Virus record (IMG/VR): IMGVR_UViG_3300010430_006923
Coordinates: 1-36,926 of that record
DNA: 36,926 nt
From: a virus
Strand: one strand, 5' to 3'
Part shown: in pieces, positions 19,417 through 36,361 of the stretch
How positions within the stretch are numbered: position 1 is the stretch's first letter
How the letters are laid out: every line of letters begins with the position of its first letter
Program-made: the position numbers and the translations under genes
The notes under the pieces: generated by a model
The model's input: the letters and a program-made list of their open reading frames with translations, nothing else
Databases searched by the model: none
What the model was told of the DNA's origin: nothing

Positions 19417-20936
19417 TACGCGGCTTCTTTTTTCTCCTTTTCGTCTTCCTTCTCCTGGTCGCTCTCGCGGCCGGAGAGCTCGGGGGCGGTGCCCACGGCT
19501 TCGGATGCCTGGTCCTTGGAGGGGTGGGTCAGATCGAGCTCGGAGTAGAACTCCAGCTCGGACTTGGTCTGCTTCGCCTCGGCCTTCCAGAATTTGCCGC
19601 GACGGGCGTGGTAGGCCTGCAGGGTCAGGAGGCCCTGCTTGACGAGTTTGATGTCGATGTTGGCGTCGCGGCCCTTGTCGATGGTGACGACGGGAGCGCC
19701 GGGGACGATGTCCACCTTCCACCAGTCCTTGACCGGCTTGATCTCGCCCATGGCTATTCCTGCGAGAATCGTGAACTGGTAGAAGCGGAGGGTGTCGCGC
19801 TCCTCGCTGCGCTGCCAGTCCTCGCAAGCCGCGTTGATGCGGTTCTGGATCGCCCGCTGCGAAGCGGAGCTGATCCCGGACGGGTTCCAGCTAAACTCGT
19901 AGGGCATGCCGCAGCCCGCAGTGACGTTGCGCCCAAGCCAGTCGAGAAACCCCATGAAAGCGGGGGACGGCCGGTTGGAGGCGAAGGCCTCCAGGCGCTC
20001 GTTCTGGGCCAGGCGGATCACCTCGGAGCCGGTCACTTTCTCCAGCGGGATGGCCGGGTCCAGCTCGTCGGGCTCGGGTTCGTCGGGATGCCCCAGAAAC
20101 TCCTCGTCGGTGACTCCGAGATCGTCGTCGTCATTCTCGACCAAAGCGCGGTTGGTAATGACGCGGCTGATACGCCCGTGGTCCTTCACGGTGGCCTTCT
20201 CCAGGGCCAGTATGTCCAGCTGGTCATGCAGGTCCGGTATCCCGTGGGCCAGGCAGGTGACGCCCCGGGACTGGTCGCCGTCCTCCAGCAGGAACGACTG
20301 CAGGACGAAATTCGCCGGGTAGGTCTTGCCGCCGTTGCGGGTCTTGACCCGGTAGGCCACGTGGCGGTCGAATCGGTTGCGGCGGACGCCGTCCTTCCAG
20401 CGATCGTCTGCTGAGTCGAGGTCGAAGTTGCCCACGTTGTGCGAGCGAACCATCTGGAACTGCGGCCAGCCGGACTCGCTCAAGGTCAGAATCGTGTGGG
20501 CGTCCCCGTCGAAGAACTTCATGCCCACCTTGAGAAACTGGTACTGGTGCCAGCTCACCTTGCCGGACAGGTCGGCGATCTTCTGGGCCCGGTTGAAAAA
20601 GTCGAAGTACTCCTCGTTCCGGCGGTCGTTGCTGGTGGCCGGTATCGGGAAGAGGCCGGGGCCGATCGAGTGGCGGGCCAAATCCTTGGCCATGGCGCGG
20701 GGCAGGCCGATGTTCTTTCGCATCCAGCGGGCCTTGCGCATGAGCTCCGACCGCGTGTACCCGCTGACCTCGCTCGGGGCGTCCATGACGAAGTCCATGA
20801 TCGCGCTGCGCCCCTTCGTGAAACGGGCCCCGATGTATCCGCCATCGTAGGACGAACGGCGGACCCGGGAGGCGGTTCCGATGCGGGCGACCGGCTTGCT
20901 GCGCCCGTCGTATAGGTATCGGGGCGTGGCCGTCAT
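19416..20936 (-). CDS. Portal protein (lambda gpB family)
   Basis: A 506-residue portal protein, the dodecameric DNA channel at the capsid vertex. The N-terminal region YDGGYIGARFTKGRSAIMDF, then ELMRKARWMRKNIGLPRAMAKDLARHSIGPGL, follows the phage_portal_2 pattern. SGISSASQRAIQNRINAACEDWQ corresponds to the conserved C-terminal helical region. The last 25 residues are a highly charged Glu/Lys tail. The start is ATG 20936, which overlaps the upstream stop (ATGA); upstream residues in the frame are out-of-frame shadow. The order gpW-like, portal, S49 protease is as in lambda. Confidence 0.88.
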   Translation of the reverse strand: MTATPRYLYDGRSKPVARIGTASRVRRSSYDGGYIGARFTKGRSAIMDFVMDAPSEVSGYTRSELMRKARWMRKNIGLPRAMAKDLARHSIGPGLFPIPATSNDRRNEEYFDFFNRAQKIADLSGKVSWHQYQFLKVGMKFFDGDAHTILTLSESGWPQFQMVRSHNVGNFDLDSADDRWKDGVRRNRFDRHVAYRVKTRNGGKTYPANFVLQSFLLEDGDQSRGVTCLAHGIPDLHDQLDILALEKATVKDHGRISRVITNRALVENDDDDLGVTDEEFLGHPDEPEPDELDPAIPLEKVTGSEVIRLAQNERLEAFASNRPSPAFMGFLDWLGRNVTAGCGMPYEFSWNPSGISSASQRAIQNRINAACEDWQRSEERDTLRFYQFTILAGIAMGEIKPVKDWWKVDIVPGAPVVTIDKGRDANIDIKLVKQGLLTLQAYHARRGKFWKAEAKQTKSELEFYSELDLTHPSKDQASEAVGTAPELSGRESDQEKEDEKEKKEAA

Positions 20937-21343
20937 AGCGGGATGCCCAGGTAGCTGGGTGCGGTCTTCTTGCGGCGGCGGAGGATCAGCCTCAGCCGCT
21001 TGATGGCGCGGAGGTTCAGGGTGTCCTTCTGCTGGGTGGTCAGGGCGTCCCAGCCCTCGTAGACGTCCTTCGGGTTGATCGCCTCGATCGCGGCCAAAAA
21101 CCGCGTGGCGTGCCGGATCAGGCCGTCCTGGTCGAACTGCCCGTCGATGCGGTAGGAGAAGGCGACACCCTCGATGTTGGAGGAGAGGACGACTCCCGAA
21201 CCGTCCTTGCGGGTATCGAAGCTGGAGTTGGCGAACGCGTTGACCTTCAGCCGGACAACCTCGCAGTCCGTTTCCCACTCGTTGGAGTCATCCTGGAGGA
21301 AACGGCGCACGAATGCCTGGTAGGAATCGAAAGCGCTGGCCAT
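20933..21343 (-). CDS. Head gene in gpW position, unknown family
   Basis: A 136-residue protein immediately before the portal. Lambda gpW, the head-tail joining protein, sits here, but gpW is only about 70 residues, so this may be a different or longer protein. The N-terminal half is polar (FDSYQAFVRRFLQDDSNEWETDCEVVRLKV). The C-terminus is very basic (LNLRAIKRLRLILRRRKKTAPS), suggesting contact with DNA. It is the first gene of the head operon after the 0.8-kb gap. A duplicated promoter-like unit lies 45-140 bases upstream. Confidence 0.6.
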   Translation of the reverse strand: MASAFDSYQAFVRRFLQDDSNEWETDCEVVRLKVNAFANSSFDTRKDGSGVVLSSNIEGVAFSYRIDGQFDQDGLIRHATRFLAAIEAINPKDVYEGWDALTTQQKDTLNLRAIKRLRLILRRRKKTAPSYLGIPL

Positions 21344-21828: not shown

Positions 21829-21863
21829 GCGCCGGGTCAATCGCGCCGCGATTTACCGGGCGC
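21829..21863. repeat. 35-bp near-perfect palindrome
   Basis: The arms at 21829-21845 and 21847-21863 pair at 15 of 17 positions around a single central base, with the core AATCGCG-C-CGCGATT. It lies in the GC-rich middle of the gap between terminase and head genes. No U-run follows on either strand, so it is not an ordinary terminator. A dimeric-protein binding site or packaging site is more likely. Confidence 0.45.
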
Positions 21864-28763: not shown

Positions 28764-29263
28764 CACTCGGTGAGACGGAAAGCCGCCTCCATCTCAATCG
28801 GCAGCTCCGCCTTGAAAATCCCTTGAGCGCCCCGCGCCGGGATCGGCTCATCTAGCTTGCGCACGTCCTTCAGAACCCACGCCCATCTTCCAAGGCTGTA
28901 GTTTCCGTAGATGTCGGGTTCGCAGCTCTCCACCGGACGGCTTGCCGCTACAGTGGCGAAGGCGACGATTGCCCCCAAAGGCAGGTTCCCCCCGGCGTCC
29001 CACTCGAGTTTCTCCAGGCATTCCTCCCAGAGTTCCGGGACTCTGGCCGCATCTCGAAGCCCTTGCGTCGTCTTTGCCGCATGGATACCGATCCGGCGAC
29101 CGACGATCGAGGCGGGAGCCGCCCAGCTCCGGGTTTCCTTGTCTTTTACCCCCTCCGCTATCAGCGAGGCCCAAGGCTGCCATAGAGAGACGCAACTAAC
29201 GACGAGCCCAGCAGGGCTCATTTGCTTCTCCTTCTTCCGAAAAAGGTCCATTTGCTCAGTCAT
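28763..29263 (-). CDS. ASCH-domain protein
   Basis: A 166-residue protein with the ASCH signature near its N-terminus: SCVSLWQPWASLIAEGVKD followed by KETRSW and RRIGIHAAK. The later segments LPLGAIVAFATVAASRPV and RWAWVLKDVRKLDEPIPARGAQGIF complete the PUA-like beta barrel. ASCH proteins bind RNA or modified nucleosides, and some hydrolyse acylated cytidine; in phages they are common in early regions. The ATG at 29263 follows AGAAGGGATGAGGCTGG. It overlaps the alternative end of the upstream RHH gene by eight bases. Confidence 0.8.
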   Translation of the reverse strand: MTEQMDLFRKKEKQMSPAGLVVSCVSLWQPWASLIAEGVKDKETRSWAAPASIVGRRIGIHAAKTTQGLRDAARVPELWEECLEKLEWDAGGNLPLGAIVAFATVAASRPVESCEPDIYGNYSLGRWAWVLKDVRKLDEPIPARGAQGIFKAELPIEMEAAFRLTE

Positions 29264-29278
29264 CCAGCCTCATCCCTT

Positions 29279-29524
29279 CTAGGAAGCCAGCCGGTAGGGG
29301 TCTGCCTTGTCCAAGTCCCTCGACGAGGGCCTCGATTCCGTCGAGCGCTTCGGAGAGGCTCCGAGGCTCCCCCGCGCCATGGCCACAAACAGCCGCTGGG
29401 CCGCCTCCTCCAGAGACAACCCCAGGTAGTTCGCCTCCACCCGTATCCGCTTTTCGATGTCGGGAGGCAGGGCGATCTTCACGCGCGGCAGCTCGCCCCA
29501 CGAGTCTAAAAGGTCTTTCTTCAT
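29279..29524 (-). CDS. Ribbon-helix-helix protein with likely frame switch near the C-terminus
   Basis: The frame encodes 81 residues. The first 55 form an RHH domain: strand LPRVKIALPPDIEKRIRVEA, turn NYLGLSLEEAAQRLFVAMAR. After the G-run at 29369-29373 this frame turns into low-complexity sequence (SPKRSTESRPSSRD). The -1 frame continues with a natural-looking SLSEALDGIEALVEGLGQG and stops at 29256, overlapping the ASCH start. A one-base slip on CGG GGG AGC would join them into a protein of about 90 residues. This could be programmed slippage, a natural frameshift mutation or an assembly error. DNA-binding regulator by fold. Confidence 0.6.
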   Translation of the reverse strand: MKKDLLDSWGELPRVKIALPPDIEKRIRVEANYLGLSLEEAAQRLFVAMARGSLGASPKRSTESRPSSRDLDKADPYRLAS

Positions 29525-29541
29525 ACGCTTTCATCGGTCCG

Positions 29542-29871
29542 CTACCAGGTTTCGAAGGCCCCACGGCCCTTCCGCTTGTGCAGCTGCGTTCCAGGCTGGC
29601 ACTTCAGCTGCATGGCGTGGCGGCCTATCGAGGCCACCTTGAAGGCCGCTCCGGGGAAATGCAGCCGCTTACCGTTGCGGAACCCCCGCTCGCGCGGGTC
29701 GACCCCCAGGTCCTTCACGGCGACCACCAGCCCTTTCCGGTGGGCCAGCTTCACCACCAGGTCCACCCCCAGGGCGGAGAACTCCAGCCCGGGACGGAAC
29801 ACGGGGCAGCGCCGCCGCATTCCGGAGGGCTTTTCCGGAGAGCCCGACTCCTTCACTGTTTCTGCATTCAT
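29542..29871 (-). CDS. Hypothetical basic protein
   Basis: A 109-residue basic protein of unknown family. The central part looks folded (FSALGVDLVVKLAHRKGLVVAVKDLGVDPRE), then LHFPGAAFKVASIGRHAMQLKC. The N-terminus is polar and probably flexible. I chose ATG 29871 (MNAETV) over a TTG seven codons upstream. It sits between a small frame ending at 29876 and the RHH gene. No motif shows its role. Confidence 0.55.
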   Translation of the reverse strand: MNAETVKESGSPEKPSGMRRRCPVFRPGLEFSALGVDLVVKLAHRKGLVVAVKDLGVDPRERGFRNGKRLHFPGAAFKVASIGRHAMQLKCQPGTQLHKRKGRGAFETW

Positions 29872-29875
29872 TTCA

Positions 29876-30007
29876 CTATGGGTTCGTGTCAACTGGTTGG
29901 TTTGGCATCCTGGGCATCCGCACGCGCGGGTCCCAGTAGCGCTTCACTTCCGCGTGGAAGGTTTGCGCAGGCATCATGTCCGCCGCGTTATTCAAGATTT
30001 GCAGCAA
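29876..30007 (-). CDS. Small 33-43-residue ORF after the DUF2303 gene
   Basis: The 125-base space between the DUF2303 gene and the next gene is open on the coding strand. From TTG 30007, with GGCGGGG five bases before it, it would encode 43 residues (LQILNNAADMMPAQTFHAEV, KRYWDPRVRMPRMPNQP). From ATG 29977 it would encode 33. The sequence is protein-like and the stop lies four bases before the next gene's start, as expected in this compact operon. Function unknown. Confidence 0.45.
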   Translation of the reverse strand: MLQILNNAADMMPAQTFHAEVKRYWDPRVRMPRMPNQPVDTNP

Positions 30008-30018
30008 AGGAGCCCCGC

Positions 30019-30882
30019 CTACAGCGGAACCGCGAGACTCCTTTCGGCGTTTCCCTCCAGCAGCCCGCTAAAAATGTCCCCCGCATGCACGAACAGCCCC
30101 GTCTTCTCCGCGATCGAGTCGCGGATTCTGGATACGGCCTCGCGAAGCGCCTCTTCCAGCCGCAGAGGCCGGATCATGAAGCCCACCGAACCCCCGTGCA
30201 GCTTCCACCGCAGCAGGCACTCGATTTCCACCAGCTCGCCGCCGGCGAAGAGAGACACCTGCACCGCTATCCGGCTCGGCACGTCCAGATCCCCCGCCTT
30301 TCCGGTGGTCGTCTCCTTGTAGGACACGTTCCACCCGCCGTCGCTCTCGCGCTGCACCGAGCTGAAGTCCACGTTCCGGGTCGCCTCCAGCTCCCGGGCG
30401 ATCGTAAGGATCTCCGAGGCCGAGTGGCTCGACACCTCGTGGGCGTGGTCCTCCAGCCATTCGGCCAGCGCCATCTGGTCCACCCACCGGTGAAAAGCCT
30501 GCTGCCACGACTTCAGCTCAGGGCTCTTCACCAGCTCCAGCTCCGCGAAGTGCGCGCACGTCTCCGCCTCCTCGCTCGAGCTGTGGTAGTCGATGCACGC
30601 GCGGAACCGCATCCTGCGCGGCTCCACCCCGAGCATCGTGCGGTGGTTCCTGAAACGGTTCACGTATTCGGAAAACGAGTCCGGCTCCTCGAACAAGGCC
30701 CGCGCCGCCGGAGCCGGGTCCAGATAGTCCTTCAGCGAGACCAGGCTGATCCCGGCGGGCACCGCCGCGAAGGGGGCCGCGAAAGCCTCGCCCTCCCCGT
30801 CCTCGGTGAAGATTCTCACGTTTTGGGCCCCTTGGGCCAGGTCCTCTATTTTGCCGATCGCCTCGGCTGTCAGTTCGCTCAT
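30019..30882 (-). CDS. DUF2303 family protein
   Basis: A 287-residue protein of the DUF2303 (YfdQ-like) family found in many temperate phages' early regions. The pattern AEWLEDHAHEV plus SRIAVQVSLFAGGELVEIECLLRWKLHGGSVGFMI is characteristic. The N-terminal part contains FMSEYVNRF-like sequence (FSEYVNRFRNHRTM) and ACIDYHSS. It is paired with a small acidic protein just upstream by an ATGA overlap, a pairing often seen for this family. The molecular function is unknown; a recombination or replication accessory role has been suggested only by context. Confidence 0.75.
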   Translation of the reverse strand: MSELTAEAIGKIEDLAQGAQNVRIFTEDGEGEAFAAPFAAVPAGISLVSLKDYLDPAPAARALFEEPDSFSEYVNRFRNHRTMLGVEPRRMRFRACIDYHSSSEEAETCAHFAELELVKSPELKSWQQAFHRWVDQMALAEWLEDHAHEVSSHSASEILTIARELEATRNVDFSSVQRESDGGWNVSYKETTTGKAGDLDVPSRIAVQVSLFAGGELVEIECLLRWKLHGGSVGFMIRPLRLEEALREAVSRIRDSIAEKTGLFVHAGDIFSGLLEGNAERSLAVPL

Positions 30883-31292
30883 GATGCGGTTGCCTTTCTA
30901 GGTTTCACGTTGTCGTTTTCGTTGGTGTCAGACTCGGGCTTGGCGCCGCCTTCCACGACAGCCGCCCCCTCGTTAAATCTCAGCTCCTCCTGTTCCGGGT
31001 CCTCTACCGAGAGGTAGCCCTCCGTAGTGGCGTAGAGGATGCGCTTCTTCCGGTCCGGCTTCGGCAGTTTCTTATTGACGTCGTCAGACAGGTCCACGGC
31101 GGTATCCTGCCCCTTCAGCGGCCTTATGTGCAGCGTGTACGTCACCGACCCCGGCTTGCCCGTGGCCCGCACCGCCTGCACCACCTTCATCAGCGCTTCC
31201 GAAAGGTCGCCCGGAGTGCGCCCCTTGTTCATCCTGGCCATCGTGTCCGTAAACAGGTTCGACGGGGTTTCCTTAACAGTATCGTTGCTCAT
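30879..31292 (-). CDS. Hypothetical partner of DUF2303 protein
   Basis: A 137-residue protein with a probable folded core at residues 25-75 (RTPGDLSEALMKVVQAVRATGKPGSVTYTLHIRPL) and a charged, disordered tail. VTYTLHIRP, followed by DRKKRILYATTEGYLSV, indicates beta strands. Proteins of this type commonly precede DUF2303 genes in phages. The gene overlaps DUF2303 by four bases. No enzymatic motif is seen. Confidence 0.6.
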   Translation of the reverse strand: MSNDTVKETPSNLFTDTMARMNKGRTPGDLSEALMKVVQAVRATGKPGSVTYTLHIRPLKGQDTAVDLSDDVNKKLPKPDRKKRILYATTEGYLSVEDPEQEELRFNEGAAVVEGGAKPESDTNENDNVKPRKATAS

Positions 31293-31297
31293 AAATT

Positions 31298-32008
31298 CTA
31301 CAGAAACGCCAGTTGCTTGGTCTCCAGCGTGATTCGCTCGAGAGCCTTTCTAAAATAGTTGCCGTCCAGCTCAGCCGCCACCAGATCGCACCCCGCATAG
31401 TGGGCGGCGATCGCTATCGACCCGCTCCCAAGATGCGTATCCAGAATTTTCATCCCCCGGCGGGCGAATTTCCCGATAAGCCACTTGTAGAGCGCCACCG
31501 GCTTTTGCGTGGGATGGATTCTCTTCTCCCTGAGACTCATGTCCCCACAAGCCCGAGTCCCGGCAGACTCGCTCCCCTGGAACATCCCGTTCCACATGTA
31601 GCGGAAAATCCTCACCGACTTCAAAGAGGAGCAATACGCCAGCTCGCAGTCAGAGAAATTCGACGCGCCATTGACCTTGTCCCAGACTATTCGCCCCGGG
31701 CCGATGCCCGGCATGTCGAAGTAGTTGACGCCCCAGACAATCTGCTCTTTCGACACTCTGAAAAGCTCCTCGAAGTATTCTTTTCCAGGCACGTCCCAAC
31801 TCTTTATCGAAGGGTATCCGTTTTTCGGCACTCTGAGCTGCCCGGGTTTGTAGGCAGTCGTCCGTCCATACCAGGCAGCCCGGTCAGGACCCTTGAAGTA
31901 CGGCGGATCCACGATCGCCAGATCGAAGTATTTGTCCGGAAACTCGGCCATCAGGTCCATGCAATCGCAGTTCCTTATATTCAAACTATCTGTGCCCATC
32001 CGTGTCAT
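31298..32008 (-). CDS. DNA N6-adenine/N4-cytosine methyltransferase (beta class)
   Basis: A 236-residue methyltransferase. The catalytic motif IV DPPY is at 34-37; HPTQKP (165-170, motif X) and ILDTHLGSGSIAIAA (188-202, SAM-binding motif I) follow, the order of the beta class. Orphan phage enzymes of this kind protect DNA from restriction or mark it for regulation; no restriction partner is nearby. The start codon at 32008 is supplied by a chromosome-type repeat (31989-32030); a second ATG at 31999 is also within it. Target sequence cannot be read from the protein. Confidence 0.87.
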   Translation of the reverse strand: MTRMGTDSLNIRNCDCMDLMAEFPDKYFDLAIVDPPYFKGPDRAAWYGRTTAYKPGQLRVPKNGYPSIKSWDVPGKEYFEELFRVSKEQIVWGVNYFDMPGIGPGRIVWDKVNGASNFSDCELAYCSSLKSVRIFRYMWNGMFQGSESAGTRACGDMSLREKRIHPTQKPVALYKWLIGKFARRGMKILDTHLGSGSIAIAAHYAGCDLVAAELDGNYFRKALERITLETKQLAFL

Positions 32009-32030
32009 CCGTGGTTGAAAAAAAACTCAG
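31989..32030 (-). repeat. Chromosome-type intergenic repeat, copy 1
   Basis: The first of three copies of an element that on the coding strand begins at the stop codon of the upstream gene (TGA), continues with a run of eight T, then AACCACGGATGACACGG and GCACAGA. Here it contains the ATG codons used to start the methyltransferase. Its tandem 9-mer (CATCCGTGT, CATCCGTGG on the plus strand) resembles dispersed repeats known from bacterial chromosomes. Confidence 0.8.
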
Positions 32031-32221
32031 TCGTCATCGTCTTCATCCCCACCGCAATTGTCGCACCGGTGCTTGGCTCCCGCCCATCCGCCGCAAGCAG
32101 TCCAGTGGAACACGCTCCCGCATTCCCCGCAGACTCCAGAACCGGTTTCGTCAACCGGCTCATCGCACACGCAGCAATCGCCACAGTATTCAAAATCCTC
32201 ATTCACATCCTCGAAACTCAT
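32027..32221 (-). CDS. RING/PHD-like zinc protein
   Basis: A 64-residue acidic protein with nine cysteines and a histidine in zinc-finger spacing: Cys16-x2-Cys19, Cys31-x2-Cys34-x4-His39-x3-Cys43, Cys53-x2-Cys56, plus Cys13 and Cys17. The VCGECGSVFHWTAC segment is like prokaryotic RING or eukaryotic PHD fingers, which cross-brace two zinc ions. It ends in a run of Asp. The start ATG 32221 lies at the end of repeat copy 2 and the stop lies in copy 1. A protein-protein adaptor role is likely; a ubiquitin-like pathway link is speculative. Confidence 0.65.
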   Translation of the reverse strand: MSFEDVNEDFEYCGDCCVCDEPVDETGSGVCGECGSVFHWTACGGWAGAKHRCDNCGGDEDDDD

Positions 32222-32261
32222 CTGCGCCCATCCGTGTCATCCGTGGTTGAAAAAAACTCAG
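32221..32261 (-). repeat. Chromosome-type intergenic repeat, copy 2
   Basis: The second copy, nearly identical to copy 1 over about 40 bases (GCGCAG in place of GCACAG, and one T fewer in the T-run). It fills the space between the stop codon at 32258 and the start codon at 32221, with the same orientation and the same phase relative to the upstream stop codon. Confidence 0.8.
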
Positions 32262-32512
32262 TTCCTCTCCGGCTCCATCGCGGACACCGTGAACCTCACG
32301 CCCGCGCGCACCCCCATCAGGGCCCCCGGGGCGCAGTCCCCCTTCTCCAGGACGATCTGCAGCTCCATCTTCGTGGCAGTCGCCCCGCCCGAATTCACAA
32401 ACCCAGTGGCGGCCCGCTCCACGGCGTCCACCAGCCGGGCCGAAAAACCGCCCTGCCCCAGCACGCTGCCGCAGATTTGCTCCACCACGTTACTCACTTC
32501 CTCTTCAGTCAT
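32258..32512 (-). CDS. Hypothetical protein
   Basis: An 84-residue protein with a helical start (TEEEVSNVVEQICGSVLGQGGFSARLVDAVERAATGF) and a strand-like second half (ATATKMELQIVLEKGD, AGVRFTVSAM). I chose ATG 32512 over the TTG five codons upstream. It lies between the exonuclease and the zinc-finger gene, and its stop codon is part of repeat copy 2. The family is not recognised. Confidence 0.6.
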   Translation of the reverse strand: MTEEEVSNVVEQICGSVLGQGGFSARLVDAVERAATGFVNSGGATATKMELQIVLEKGDCAPGALMGVRAGVRFTVSAMEPERN

Positions 32513-32534
32513 ATCCACAGTATCCAAAATTTCC

Positions 32535-33164
32535 CTAGTCCTCCCGCCCCGAGCAGGTCGCAGGCTTCGAGAGCATCCCCTCCAGCTGCCCGGCCTTCAG
32601 CTGCAGCGCAGCCAGACGGTCCGCCAGCAGACAGTGTATCCGCATCGCGTGCCTCGCGCCTTCGAGCGCGTTGTGCACCTCCGGCTCGTCGGGGATCCCC
32701 AGCTTTTTGTAGTACTCGTAGATCGAGTACTCCGGGTTCTCCACGCACTCGCCATCCGCACAGGCCATCAGGTAGGCCTCCGAGTGCACGTCCACCACCC
32801 GCCCGTGGAAAGGCAGCTCCACGCAGTCGCGGCGGCGCAGAAACCCCACGTCGAAGCCCGGGTTCTTCCCCACCACCCGGTATTTCCCGTAGGTGTTCCC
32901 GTAGGCGTCCGGCTCCGTCAGCCAGGTCTTCAGGGCGACGAGCGCCCCCCGCTCCAGCGGCTTTCGCGGGTCGCGGAAGTCCGCCATCGTGAACCCGTTC
33001 ACCTCCAGCGCCCTCGGGTGCGGGTCGCGCACGTACTGCGGGCGGCACTCCATGTAGAACTCGCCCTTGGCGGCGTGCGCCGCCCCGACCGAGCAGATGC
33101 CGTCCTGCTCCGGGTCCAGCCCCGTCGTCTCCAGGTCCAAGAAAAGCTCGCTATCGTCTGGCAT
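32535..33164 (-). CDS. DnaQ-like 3'-5' exonuclease (DEDDh), last Asp missing
   Basis: A 209-residue nuclease of the DEDDh fold. Motif I LFLDLETTGLD gives Asp10 and Glu12, motif II GKNPGFDVGFL gives Asp105, and motif III HNALEGARH gives His164. In active members the fifth residue after that His is Asp (HxAxxDA); here it is Gly169. The protein may therefore have lowered activity or use Glu168 instead. It resembles the phage and Rv2179c-like single-domain exonucleases. It overlaps the upstream RHH gene by 14 bases. Possible roles are degradation of host nucleic acid or RNA processing. Confidence 0.82.
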   Translation of the reverse strand: MPDDSELFLDLETTGLDPEQDGICSVGAAHAAKGEFYMECRPQYVRDPHPRALEVNGFTMADFRDPRKPLERGALVALKTWLTEPDAYGNTYGKYRVVGKNPGFDVGFLRRRDCVELPFHGRVVDVHSEAYLMACADGECVENPEYSIYEYYKKLGIPDEPEVHNALEGARHAMRIHCLLADRLAALQLKAGQLEGMLSKPATCSGRED

Positions 33165-33426
33165 AGGAAAGCTGTTTCAGGAGCCCCTCTCTCCGCTTCG
33201 GGTCCTTCACGATTTTCAGCACCTCCGCGCTTTCGCGCGCCTCCCGGTCCTCTTCGCACACCGGAGGGCAGCCCTGCTCCATCCACCACTGGTAGACCAG
33301 CGCCCCGTAGGCGCTTTTCGAGAGCCCGAGGCCACGGGCGTACTGCTCTATCTCGACCGCCAGGGCGGGCGACACCCGCGCGTTGATCTGCGCAGGCATG
33401 GGAGGAGGTTTCATCTTAGAGGGCAT
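33151..33426 (-). CDS. Ribbon-helix-helix protein with WxxGxPxV-type tail
   Basis: A 91-residue RHH-type regulator. INARVSPALAVEIEQYARGLGLSKSAYGALVYQ forms strand, helix, turn, helix, and it ends in the family motif WWMEQGCPPV shared with other small proteins in this region. A charged helical tail follows (EEDREARESAEVLKIVKDPKRREGLLKQL). Starts at 33426, 33414 and 33399 are possible; the first is used here. RHH proteins bind DNA as dimers through the N-terminal strand. Target and role unknown. Confidence 0.7.
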   Translation of the reverse strand: MPSKMKPPPMPAQINARVSPALAVEIEQYARGLGLSKSAYGALVYQWWMEQGCPPVCEEDREARESAEVLKIVKDPKRREGLLKQLSYARR

Positions 33427-33442
33427 AGGTTGTAAAAGTATT

Positions 33443-33634
33443 TCAGTTGCGGAACGCGGACACCAGGCGAGCCACGGCGAAAACCACGAGAACGAACGCC
33501 ACCGGCATCCACAGAGGCGAGAGGACCCACCACCACGGCCAGCCGATCGCCCCCACCAGCTTCAGGACGACAAACGCCACCGCCAGCAGCCCCGTAAACC
33601 CAACACCCCCAGTCGCTGTGCTTTCTTTTCTCAT
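33443..33634 (-). CDS. Small two-pass membrane protein
   Basis: A 63-residue protein with two membrane segments, about residues 9-28 (TGLLAVAFVVLKLVGAIGWP) and 31-55 (WVLSPLWMPVAFVLVVFAVARLV), forming a tight hairpin. I chose ATG 33634, preceded by CGGAGAAAGCG; an alternative start 20 codons upstream would begin inside repeat copy 3. The early-region location makes membrane-based exclusion or host modification possible. Unknown family. Confidence 0.6.
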   Translation of the reverse strand: MRKESTATGGVGFTGLLAVAFVVLKLVGAIGWPWWWVLSPLWMPVAFVLVVFAVARLVSAFRN

Positions 33635-33674
33635 ACGCTTTCTCCGCTGTTGATAATCGATGTATCCAAAAACA

Positions 33675-33725
33675 TCTGTGCAAATCCGTGTCATCCGTGG
33701 TTTAAAAAAACAAAAAAAAATTCAG
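33675..33725 (-). repeat. Chromosome-type intergenic repeat, copy 3
   Basis: The third, more diverged copy: the stop codon of the HTH gene, then an extended T/G run, then AAACCACGGATGACACGG followed by GCACAGATG. It lies in the same orientation as the other two, again starting exactly at a stop codon. The ORF of the next gene could start within it (ATG 33694), but a better ribosome site lies downstream. Confidence 0.75.
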
Positions 33726-34027
33726 AACCGCCTCACTCCCTTGTATTCGTCCAGAGACTTCCGCAGCACCTTGATGGGCGATCCCCGCTTGCCGCGCCCC
33801 ACTCCCGGCAGCTTGCGCCGGGGCAGTATTTTCAGCACCTTGCGCTGCACCAGGTCCAGCACCGTGTCGCGGCTGCACTGCAGCTCCTCGGCCACCTGGG
33901 CCACCGTCAGCACCTCCGGCCTCGGCCGCCGCAGCGAGGCAAGGCTCTCGATGCGAGCCGAAAGCGCCTCGATCCTCTCGTTCTGGGCGTCGATCCGCTC
34001 CAGCAAAGCCTCCTGAAACTCGGTCAT
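33722..34027 (-). CDS. MerR/excisionase-like helix-turn-helix protein
   Basis: A 101-residue protein with an N-terminal coiled coil (EALLERIDAQNERIEALSARIESLASL) and a DNA-binding domain at about 40-100. LTVAQVAEELQCSRDTVLDLVQ is the helix-turn-helix, followed by KVLKILPRRKLPG and a wing with PIKVLRKSLDEY, the helix_turn_helix_17/excisionase pattern. The ATG overlaps the upstream stop (ATGA). It may be a transcriptional regulator or an excisionase; no integrase is in the window to support the latter. Confidence 0.75.
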   Translation of the reverse strand: MTEFQEALLERIDAQNERIEALSARIESLASLRRPRPEVLTVAQVAEELQCSRDTVLDLVQRKVLKILPRRKLPGVGRGKRGSPIKVLRKSLDEYKGVRRF

Positions 34028-34350
34028 CCCTCCGGGCCCTCCAGCCTGAACGGCTCCCGCTCGAGGAGAAACTCCAGATGCCGCACCCGCTGCCGCAGCT
34101 CGACATTCTCCACCTTCAGCGAGTCCCCCGCCCGGCGCTCCTCCACCAGCGCCTGCTCCAGCTCGAAGTTCGAGCACTCCAGATTGAGGACCATGTCCCT
34201 CAAGCGCCCCGCCGTATCCGGTTTGCGGGGACCGTCCTTCACGGAGAAAGGCCCCGCCACGCCGTCCCCGCTGGAGATGCGCGTGCCCACGTTCCACTGG
34301 AAGAGCGCCTTGAAAAACCGGCACGCCGAGTCGATGGGACGCGTTAGCAT
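34024..34350 (-). CDS. Coiled-coil hypothetical protein
   Basis: A 108-residue protein. The first 50 residues are mixed; the rest is a probable coiled coil (LRDMVLNLECSNFELEQALVEERRAGDSLKVENVELRQRVRHLEFLL). The HTH protein downstream also starts with a coiled coil and the two genes overlap (ATGA), so the products may bind each other. Unknown family. Confidence 0.6.
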   Translation of the reverse strand: MLTRPIDSACRFFKALFQWNVGTRISSGDGVAGPFSVKDGPRKPDTAGRLRDMVLNLECSNFELEQALVEERRAGDSLKVENVELRQRVRHLEFLLEREPFRLEGPEG

Positions 34351-34682
34351 GTACAGCCCTCCCCGTTGGCCTTTTTCACTCGCGCTTCCAGCGTGTCCAA
34401 TGGTAGCAGATACACATGCCCATACCCCACGCTGAAATCGCCGACAAGATCGTCGAACTTGGATTCGCTTCCAGTTACGTCTACAACCAGAACATTCGCG
34501 CCTTCGACTTCGCCTTTACGGACCGAGGCCAGCGCCTCCGTGAAGACCTTAAATCCGTTCTTTCTGCCGTCAAACAGCAGGACGGCCCGGACGGTCGCAA
34601 TCTGGCAGCCTTCATCGGTCTGCTTGCGCTCCCCGAAGACGAAGGCCTCTACCTCGGCTAGCTTCACCCGGCTCAAGGCCAC
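34344..34682 (-). CDS. Hypothetical protein
   Basis: A 112-residue protein with alternating strands (EVEAFVFGERK, CQIATVRAVLLFDGRKNGFKVFTEAL, GANVLVVDVTGSE, YGHVYLLPLDTL). It is probably a small alpha/beta fold. It ends in CTC. The start is GTG 34682, supported by GGAGGAGGG seven bases upstream, one of the few strong Shine-Dalgarno sites in the window. It overlaps both neighbours. I do not recognise it. Confidence 0.6.
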   Translation of the reverse strand: MALSRVKLAEVEAFVFGERKQTDEGCQIATVRAVLLFDGRKNGFKVFTEALASVRKGEVEGANVLVVDVTGSESKFDDLVGDFSVGYGHVYLLPLDTLEARVKKANGEGCTC

Positions 34683-34960
34683 TGGTCCCTCCTCCGTCCG
34701 CGAACCCGGCGGGCAGCCCGTATCAAATCCTCATTGTGGTATCCAGTGGCCGAGTACGATATTACGGCCCCCAGGCCGCACGCCGCCAGCAGGCAGCACA
34801 GGGCCACCTTGCCCGCCAGGTACGCCCTCAGAAGCTTCCGCATCAGCGCCGCCTTCGAGATGTCCAGCTCAAACGCCCGGCGCCCCAGATCCCGCGACAG
34901 CTCCAAGTCCATAGGGACCCCCACGATCACCTTGCCCTCGCCTATCGGGTGAGTCGCCAT
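34673..34960 (-). CDS. Ribbon-helix-helix protein with C-terminal membrane segment
   Basis: A 95-residue protein whose first 54 residues are a close paralogue of the next gene upstream (31 of 54 identical, both starting MATHPIG). The RHH region is KVIVGVPMDLELSRDLGRRAFELDISKAALMRKLLRAYLAG. Unlike its sister, it continues with a hydrophobic segment VALCCLLAACGLGAVISY (about 52-69) and a basic tail, so it may tether DNA to the membrane. The start region (34941-34962) is nearly identical to that of the sister gene, showing a tandem duplication. Start and stop overlap as TAATG. Confidence 0.68.
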   Translation of the reverse strand: MATHPIGEGKVIVGVPMDLELSRDLGRRAFELDISKAALMRKLLRAYLAGKVALCCLLAACGLGAVISYSATGYHNEDLIRAARRVRGRRRDQWP

Positions 34961-35148
34961 TATCGCTTTCCCTCCCTTTTCTCAGGCAGAGCTATCTCGC
35001 CAGCAAGGTAGCCCTCCAGAAATCGCCGGGCGATTTCCGCCTTCGAGACGTCCAGCGCGAACGCGCGGCGTCCCAGCTGTCTAGCAACCTCCTTATGCAC
35101 GGGAATTGACAAAAGTGTCTTGTTTTTTCCTATCGGGTGAGTCGCCAT
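34960..35148 (-). CDS. Ribbon-helix-helix protein, tandem duplicate
   Basis: A 62-residue RHH protein, MATHPIGKNKTLLSIPVHKE followed by VARQLGRRAFALDVSKAEIA and RRFLEGYLAG. It ends in a short charged tail EIALPEKREGKR and lacks the membrane segment of its duplicate. I chose ATG 35148, which overlaps the upstream stop by one base (TAATG) and matches the sister gene's start. Likely a dimeric DNA-binding regulator; it could form heterodimers with the membrane-bound copy. Confidence 0.7.
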   Translation of the reverse strand: MATHPIGKNKTLLSIPVHKEVARQLGRRAFALDVSKAEIARRFLEGYLAGEIALPEKREGKR

Positions 35149-35486
35149 TATTCGGATACCCCTATTTCTACCTTGCGCTTCCGGGCTTCCAGCAGCGCGT
35201 CGTCCACCTCGTCTACAGGCGGGCATCCGTCGGCAAACCACTTGTCGACGATGGCGATAACCATGGCGTCGCCAGTCCTCTGCAGATCGTAGGCTCGAAG
35301 CGCGATCTCGGCTACCGCCTGCGCGGTTTCCCGCCTCTTCGCCAGCGCGAGCAAGTCAGTTAGAATGTCCCCCGAACCTTTCTCGAAAATCGGCAGGTAA
35401 CGCTCAGCTATGAACTTCAGGAGATCGGAGTGCTTCCTGAGCAGGTCCCCATACTTTTGAAGCTCCTGAATCTCACCGGGCTTCAC
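35148..35486 (-). CDS. Helical protein with WxxGxPxV motif, divergent RHH relative
   Basis: A 112-residue helical protein. Its second half, LRAYDLQRTGDAMVIAIVDKWFADGCPPVDEVDD, aligns with the helix-turn-helix part and WxxGxPxV tail of the RHH proteins at 33151 and 35855, but a clear N-terminal strand is missing. The first half (IQELQKYGDLLRKHSDLLKFIAERYLPIFEKGSGDILTDLLAL) is an added helical part. The start is GTG 35486, overlapping the upstream stop (GTGA). Probable regulator or antagonist of the RHH proteins; function unproven. Confidence 0.6.
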   Translation of the reverse strand: MKPGEIQELQKYGDLLRKHSDLLKFIAERYLPIFEKGSGDILTDLLALAKRRETAQAVAEIALRAYDLQRTGDAMVIAIVDKWFADGCPPVDEVDDALLEARKRKVEIGVSE

Positions 35487-35689
35487 GCGACCTCCTCCTT
35501 TGCAAAGTCGGCGCCGTCTACATCGATCGGATGAACCTTCTTCATCCCCCGCTTAAACCACTCCTCTACAATTAGTGAGGTGAACCGAGTCGGCGACATC
35601 GACATCCGCTCAGCGCGTTTCCGGATGGCCGAGGTGATCTCGCTCGATACGTACCCATTCACAGGCTCCTTTTTGACGGCTTCTCCCAT
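35483..35689 (-). CDS. Ribbon-helix-helix regulator, leftward member of a divergent pair
   Basis: A 68-residue RHH protein and the first gene of the large leftward operon. KKEPVNGYVSSEITSAIRKRAERMSMSPTRFTSLIVEEWFKRGMKKVHPID aligns along its length with the rightward gene at 35855 (shared PVNGYVS, RA, KVHP/AVHP). PVNGYVS would be the DNA-contacting strand. The ATG at 35689 has no Shine-Dalgarno site; a -10-like element ends 15 bases upstream. It probably autoregulates the intergenic region it shares with its paralogue. Confidence 0.72.
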   Translation of the reverse strand: MGEAVKKEPVNGYVSSEITSAIRKRAERMSMSPTRFTSLIVEEWFKRGMKKVHPIDVDGADFAKEEVA

Positions 35690-35854
35690 AGTTTTATTAA
35701 AACAATAGAAGGAGTGAAACGAGCCCCGTCAAGCGGAAATTATACTTTTATTAAATTAATGGACCGGCTTTGCCCGCTTTACAAAACTTTTAAAGGAACG
35801 TGTTCCCTGAATTTATTACTTTATTATTTCAGAATCGCAGGCGATCATCGGGCC
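35690..35854. promoter_or_regulatory. Divergent AT-rich control region
   Basis: The 165-base space between the divergent RHH genes is much more AT-rich than the rest. For leftward transcription, TTGACG (35727-35732) and TCTATT (35704-35709) are 17 bases apart; a TATAAT hexamer is at 35739-35744. Candidate operators are the direct repeat TTTTATTAAA (35692-35701 and 35746-35755), the palindrome ATTAAATTAAT (35750-35760) and GGAACGTGTTCC (35795-35806). A rightward promoter is not obvious. Confidence 0.6.
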
Positions 35855-36361
35855 ATGTCTTACACTGACCCGCCGCGCAAAAAGCCCGTCAACGGCTACG
35901 TGTCCGTTGAACTCGCAGACTTCATCGCTCACCGCGCGAAGCTTCTCGACTTCAAGGTCACCAAGTACGCGAGCCTCATCCTCGAGCACTGGTACGACTC
36001 CGGCGCGCCCGCAGTTCACCCGAACGAGTACGGGTACAACAAGCCAGCAGGCGAGAGCAACGCGCCCCGACATGAAGACGAAATGCGAGACGCCGATTTC
36101 ACCTTCGAGGAATTGCTTCCAGAAATAGACACCGTTGCAGAAGAGCAGGCCGCATACACACCCCCGATCTCTACCCAGCTCGACTACTTCGCCAAACAGG
36201 ATGAGGACCGCAGAAAGAAGGCCCTGGTCATCCTCCAAGCTCTGGAGGACAACGAAGAGGCTTTCCAAGGGTTTTCAAAGTTGCTCGACGCAATGGCCCA
36301 CCTCGTTAAAAAAAATCCAGACTGGGGCAAACCTGACTCCGGAGAAGAACCAAAAAAGTAA
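35855..36361 (+). CDS. Ribbon-helix-helix regulator, rightward member of divergent pair
   Basis: A 168-residue protein on the plus strand. Residues 8-60 (KKPVNGYVSVELADFIAHRAKLLDFKVTKYASLILEHWYDSGAPAVHPNE) are an RHH domain paralogous to the leftward protein at 35483. The remaining 110 residues are acidic and helical (TFEELLPEIDTVAEEQ, ALVILQALEDNEEAFQGFSKLLDAMAHLV) and may mediate oligomerisation. I start it at ATG 35855 since this aligns with its paralogue; the frame is open back to a GTG at 35714 but that part is not protein-like. Likely regulator of the same control region. Confidence 0.72.
   Translation: MSYTDPPRKKPVNGYVSVELADFIAHRAKLLDFKVTKYASLILEHWYDSGAPAVHPNEYGYNKPAGESNAPRHEDEMRDADFTFEELLPEIDTVAEEQAAYTPPISTQLDYFAKQDEDRRKKALVILQALEDNEEAFQGFSKLLDAMAHLVKKNPDWGKPDSGEEPKK

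Follow-up and report, generated by a model that had tools for sequence, protein, structure and literature searches.

Candidate ribbon-helix-helix regulators with a shared tail motif and a divergent gene pair in the early region of a tailed-phage contig

We analyzed a group of small genes for putative ribbon-helix-helix (RHH) DNA-binding proteins in the IMG/VR virus record IMGVR_UViG_3300010430_006923. The window comprises the whole record (36,926 bases, class linear) and carries a tailed-phage gene set with a terminase related to annotated large terminases, a portal-like protein (NCBIfam E 6e-6, under the cut-off) and a D5-type primase/helicase. An earlier note on this DNA had described six RHH-like genes and one helical relative; all seven open frames, termed here P1 to P7, were confirmed where it had placed them, with guanine-cytosine (GC) contents at third codon positions of 0.60-0.84, high as in real genes of this contig. 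In a list of 48 window genes, compiled by hand and with some ends approximate, 46 have the leftward orientation and the two exceptions are P7 and P8; the leftward transcript accordingly starts with P6 (35483..35689, - strand, 68 amino acids (aa)). P6, P5 (35148..35486, - strand, 112 aa), P4 (34960..35148, - strand, 62 aa), P3 (34673..34960, - strand) and the next gene are chained by stop/start overlaps, consecutively GTGA, TAATG, TAATG and a longer overlap, and therefore probably form one leftward operon. P7 (35855..36361, + strand, 168 aa) diverges from P6, and P2 (33151-33426, 91 aa) and P1 (29279-29524, 81 aa) are both encoded on the - strand.

Assignment to the RHH superfamily drew on profiles, shuffling and one structure model. 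A profile of the six 49-residue domains retrieved CopG in the Protein Data Bank (E 0.001), and no window protein matched Pfam RHH_1. The RHH core was assessed with a profile built from CopG, a Cupriavidus RHH-like protein, P2, P6 and P7, against which the score of P4 was reached by 0/5000 shuffles, that of P1 by 12/5000 and that of P3 by 14/5000; these three proteins have no curated family match, their RHH signal coming from the shuffle tests only. Because 482/5000 shuffles did as well as P5, the core of this protein lends no support to an RHH assignment. The strand-helix-helix layout of ~45 residues that marks the superfamily is supported for P6 by the two helices and the RHH matches of the model described below, in which DSSP assigns no strand, and for P7 through its 45% identity to P6. 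P2 joins them by profile similarity, through lines of support that are weak singly.

A clear relationship is that between the divergent neighbors P6 and P7, which share 45% identity over 49 residues and scored 40.6 and 44.9 bits in leave-one-out profiles (0/2000 shuffles each). In P7, the RHH domain is N-terminal and followed by an extension of ~110 aa for which no family match was obtained. Both proteins carry the strand PVNGYVS, in which 7/7 residues are identical although 6/7 codons have changed synonymously, compared with 14/39 identical residues in the remaining domain. Since the strand has been kept letter for letter while the codons and the rest of the domain diverged, we infer a common set of DNA sites for P6 and P7. 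Arc contacts DNA through Gln9, Asn11 and Arg13 of its RHH strand (PMC12645479); the aligned residues of P6 and P7 are Pro, Asn and Tyr, the Asn being common with Arc. An AlphaFold model of P6, built on a three-sequence alignment, contains helices at residues 16-28 and 33-46, with block-mean predicted local distance difference test (pLDDT) values of 84-92 for residues 21-50. CopG, Arc and ParG chains were among its best Foldseek matches, none of them at E 0.001 or below, and on re-alignment with VIA, RHH chains filled the top rows (best Z 5.2 over 44 residues).

P6 (-) and P7 (+) face away from a single spacer, the layout of Arc/Mnt type. This spacer (35690..35854, 165 bp) has a GC content of 37.6% versus ~60% in most of the surrounding region and would be the candidate operator/promoter region. 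A 22-nt direct repeat has its first copy at the P6 start (35688..35709) and its second, with 18/22 identity and a spacing of 54, at 35742..35763; it was reached by 2/1000 shuffles of positions 35685-35860, edges included. An imperfect dyad of 35 bp with 13/17 matching arms spans the P6 start codon (35680..35714). Furthermore, TTTTATTAAA occurs in exactly two copies in the window, both within the spacer, and a literature search for the repeat core ACGGATGACACGGAT gave no match.

A common tail occurs in four of the seven proteins, as WMEQGCPPV in P2, WFADGCPPV in P5, WFKRGMKKV in P6 and WYDSGAPAV in P7. Each of the four has W, G and V, and all but P6 have the P as well. The stricter form W[FYWM]..G.P.V was found in 3/48 window genes (P2, P5 and P7; shuffled mean 0.002, 0/1000 shuffles reaching 3) and the relaxed form W[FYWM]..G...V in 4/48 with P6 added (shuffled mean 0.102, 0/1000 reaching 4). 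In 2236 open reading frames from 66 other loci (357,971 aa), each form occurred three times, by eye with no RHH stretch among them. The tail proposed in the earlier note thus holds far above chance, although its formula W-[WFY]-x-x-G misfits WWMEQGCPPV, where the alignment uses the second W and the aromatic position is occupied by M. Unrelated families together with a tail at chance level, the outcome named there as fatal to the proposal, are not what we found.

For P2, the tail is decisive. A P6/P7 profile scored it at 12.9 bits with the tail (0/2000 shuffles) versus 1.0 bit without (44/2000), so that P2 clearly joins this pair only with the tail included. The distance from the strand V to the tail W, 29 residues without gaps, is the same in P2, P6 and P7. 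P2 additionally resembles the Pfam NikA-like family (PF21983; E 8.4e-4, 19.9 bits, the cut-off of 27 bits not being reached), and its strand Q-I-N-A-R aligns ungapped with the DNA-contact triplet of Arc, placing Gln, Asn and Arg at the contact places.

The earlier note located this tail outside the DNA-binding fold and regarded it as a common docking motif. On that view, P2, P5, P6 and P7 would share a binding site for a single partner, for instance host RNA polymerase or a factor of the phage. Conservation of the tail beyond the demands of the fold, seen in that P5 was found only and P2 mostly via the tail, speaks for such docking, as does the rarity of the tail elsewhere. For the first half of the motif, however, the location is wrong: in the P6 model, the second helix finishes with residues W44-K46 and has G48 directly after it, and model residues 5-50, W44 and G48 included, align to solved RHH chains, Arc and CopG covering the same positions. 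Moreover, the residues kept in all four proteins (W, G, V) are those expected for a helix cap, and P5 retains a helix pair in RHH register besides the tail. We therefore consider docking unlikely. With W44-K46 in the second helix, G48 next to it and W, G and V kept in all four proteins while P is not, a cap at the helix end is the simpler reading of the modeled tail. Among helix motifs at the C-terminal end, Gly at C' is described as the most important, and Pro at C''' is also mapped (PMC4515027). The tail Val falls in a low-confidence part of the P6 model (mean 52, residues 51-60).

No strand was recognized in P5, a predicted helical protein whose helix pair lies in RHH register. A profile of P2, P6 and P7 scored it at 13.2 bits with the tail (0/2000 shuffles) versus -1.1 bits without (565/2000). 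Aligned to the same three-member profile with hhalign, P5 gave a probability of 88.9 over columns 16-49, that is, with the strand excluded. The 28 residues before the tail place the RHH helix pair in exact register, a fit matched by only 92/20000 shuffles, compared with 0 or 1/20000 for real members; with the tail fixed, 75/3000 shuffles of these 28 residues scored as well in the profile test. On this sequence evidence, P5 is probably an RHH relative that lacks the ribbon, support from the pre-tail residues alone being modest. A different view of the overlapping P6 and P5 genes would take them as a toxin-antitoxin system of type II, in which P6 would be the RHH antitoxin and P5 the toxin. The overlap itself suits such a pair, and the structural matches of P6 include the RHH antitoxins AtaR and TacA, but Pfam, NCBIfam and PADLOC, at the limits used, gave no family match for P5, and its tail and helix register are common to the RHH proteins themselves. 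We regard this pairing as very unlikely.

P3 and P4 form a second paralogous pair, lacking the tail. Their 52% identity and 188-bp period indicate a tandem duplication. A perfect 23-nt repeat lies across both start codons (34941-34963 and 35129-35151) and is sharper than the identity elsewhere in the two genes. In P3, the second helix is followed by a hydrophobic segment (residues 49-67, mean hydropathy 2.08) that is absent from P4; with this segment, P3 may be a membrane-anchored DNA-binding protein. Weak matches of P3 to Csx18 in the NCBIfam and PADLOC searches fall on this hydrophobic stretch and were set aside. P1 is RHH-like, also without the tail, and distant from all others.

These relationships bear on the proposal of the earlier note that one regulator was duplicated repeatedly. 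It is supported for the clear paralogue pairs P6/P7 and P3/P4, with P2 and P5 joining via the tail, but this support does not extend to a descent of all seven genes from one regulator, given that P1 offers a weak fold signal only. The opposite extreme would be that RHH genes of varied origin gathered in the early region with no common circuit, duplication being confined to P6/P7 and P3/P4. Such unlinked acquisition would suit P1 and P3/P4, which are tailless and connected to the others by just a weak, general RHH signal, as well as P2, whose best outside match is a plasmid-encoded RHH-like protein beside transfer genes (E 7e-3). It is at odds with the tail shared by four proteins and with the overlapping stop/start codons that join P6, P5, P4 and P3, and it appears doubtful to us.

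Taken together, the data suggest that the early end of this tailed-phage contig holds a set of RHH regulators, in which P6 and P7 act as a divergent switch over the spacer, the tail serves as a cap and P5 is ribbonless, a reading whose chances we judge to be about even. P6 and P7 would each dimerize and bind the same sites in the spacer, with P6 autoregulating the early operon that runs leftward and P7 serving as the opposing repressor, in the manner of the Mnt/Arc or CI/Cro pairs. The tail would form the end of the second RHH helix with a fixed exit turn, Trp occupying the last turn, Gly C' and Pro C''' and Val folding back, and would be kept for capping the helix and packing the dimer. We give less weight to the idea that P5, whose gene is coupled to that of P6 through the stop/start overlap, retained the helix pair and cap while losing the ribbon. 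A more far-reaching version makes P5 a decoy: keeping the helix pair and the WxxxGxPxV cap, it would heterodimerize with P6, P7 and P2 and, by contributing nothing to a sheet that needs two strands, leave only half of it and block DNA binding, the tail acting as a pairing code that chooses RHH partners. We think this version quite unlikely. Such a decoy would be the phage counterpart of the eukaryotic Id proteins.

Several observations weigh against this reading of a divergent switch with a ribbonless partner. In the P6 model, the strand region is of low confidence, DSSP assigns no strand and the predicted template modeling score is 0.47. Within the strict spacer, the best repeat score is 16/22 and is reached by 41/1000 shuffles, and the dyad is reached by 10/300, with one of eight window placements giving at least 13/17; being weak versus base-composition shuffles, the repeats and dyad are suggestive only. 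No sigma-70-like promoter was found within the spacer. The P5 model is all-helical but of low confidence throughout (mean pLDDT 60), and the tail, kept there despite an unrecognized core, could be a separate functional motif. Lastly, no Phage_integrase domain was found in the window, on a contig that may be incomplete and with serine integrases not sought; a lysogeny switch and an early-late timer are therefore both possible. If the proposed circuit is real, a multi-member phage repressor system would have been built from one tiny fold on one small contig, with two paralogues that preserve a single DNA code as the rest of each protein diverges, and a co-translated relative, devoid of the part that reads DNA, that could tune both by dimer mixing.

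Other features of the contig were recorded alongside. The same leftward gene run encodes an HTH_17/excisionase-like DNA-binding protein at 33722-34027 (Pfam E 3.5e-8; NCBIfam excise E 4.6e-5, under the cut-off), and a Cys-rich protein of 64 aa at 32027-32221 has a weak RING-finger-like match (E 7.6e-4, under the cut-off). The 18-nt sequence CCACGGATGACACGGATG occurs three times on the - strand (31997-32014, 32229-32246 and 33683-33700), two copies being exact and one with one mismatch (chance 0.03). All copies lie between early genes in the gene direction, adjoining an A/T run, and with two mismatches allowed a match was present in 1/16 other records; the sequence resembles a dispersed element of small size. 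Within the window, the dyad with the best arms (21829-21863, 15/17) is situated in the gap separating the gene at 20933-21343 from the terminase gene. Verrucomicrobia phage P8625 has a distant relative of the large terminase (24.5% identity over 67%), from which Verrucomicrobiota is our guess for the host group.

The search for homologues covered viral_contigs with short seeds and patterns, the phages and plasmids collections with tblastn, and ~500 genomes around one Arenicellales metagenome-assembled genome (MAG) and its phylum. In viral_contigs, seeds from P7, P6 and P2 matched 8, 18 and 9 stretches, with no relatives for any of them; the tail pattern and a pattern of strand, Ala and tail (an exact fit to P2 and P7) each matched 8 stretches, none RHH. 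In the phages collection, P7 had no match, and P2, P6 and P5 (E up to 10) gave 6, 1 and 5 records, all short and chance-like with none under E 2. In the plasmids collection, P7 matched 3 records (best E 9) and P2 two, one of which is the RHH-like protein beside transfer genes mentioned above (plasmid pRK1-3, Cupriavidus). The three-member profile was run on 38 records chosen by terminase, primase or accession and matched 3/38 at E<=1 in four places, three of them in a non-RHH 99-aa frame beside the terminase and the fourth in a 39-aa frame. It also gave partial matches of 19 columns in 1/3 MAG genomes behind chance hits (E<=1) and none in 100 genomes related to the Arenicellales MAG (0/100). 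The single hit among 398 genomes of that phylum (1/398), a 237-aa protein with a signal-peptide-like start, was judged fortuitous. The six-member profile found only the window's own six domains (0/27 other records); because it missed even P22 arc and mnt, the absence of relatives is weakly supported. For P5, the low-confidence model gave no significant Foldseek match. No publication on such a protein set was found in the literature searched, an absence that is not proof.

Phage RHH genes and divergent RHH pairs are already known, and within these limited searches no relative with this tail was found. The view that it is unusual for a single phage to have several RHH genes proved too strong, as P22 has arc and mnt and archaeal viruses carry neighboring RHH genes, for example AvtR gp29 and gp30 (PMC5569661). 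By sequence, the best match of the six-member profile is CopG/RHH_1, with the CopG alignment stopping at column 42, before GxPxV. The hypothetical protein of Cupriavidus plasmid pRK1-3 resembles P2 (40% over 43 residues) but ends in FWWIQYIYPPK, without the Gly. Among archaeal viruses, AvtR (AFV6 gp29) controls its own promoter and that of the adjacent predicted RHH gene gp30, with ~100 nt protected in between (PMC5569661). Like P6 and P7, it is an RHH regulator with an RHH neighbor; it differs in its archaeal virus origin and in having two fused RHH motifs that act as a monomer. The mnt/arc region (immI) of Salmonella phage P22, in common with P6/P7, contains two divergent RHH genes, with operators for both annotated in the intervening spacer, and the Gln-Asn-Arg strand of Arc aligns with that of P2, the P2 domain sharing 21% and 16% identity with Arc and Mnt, respectively. 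In contrast to the locus described here, that region has two RHH genes only, and Arc and Mnt are built without the WxxxGxPxV tail.

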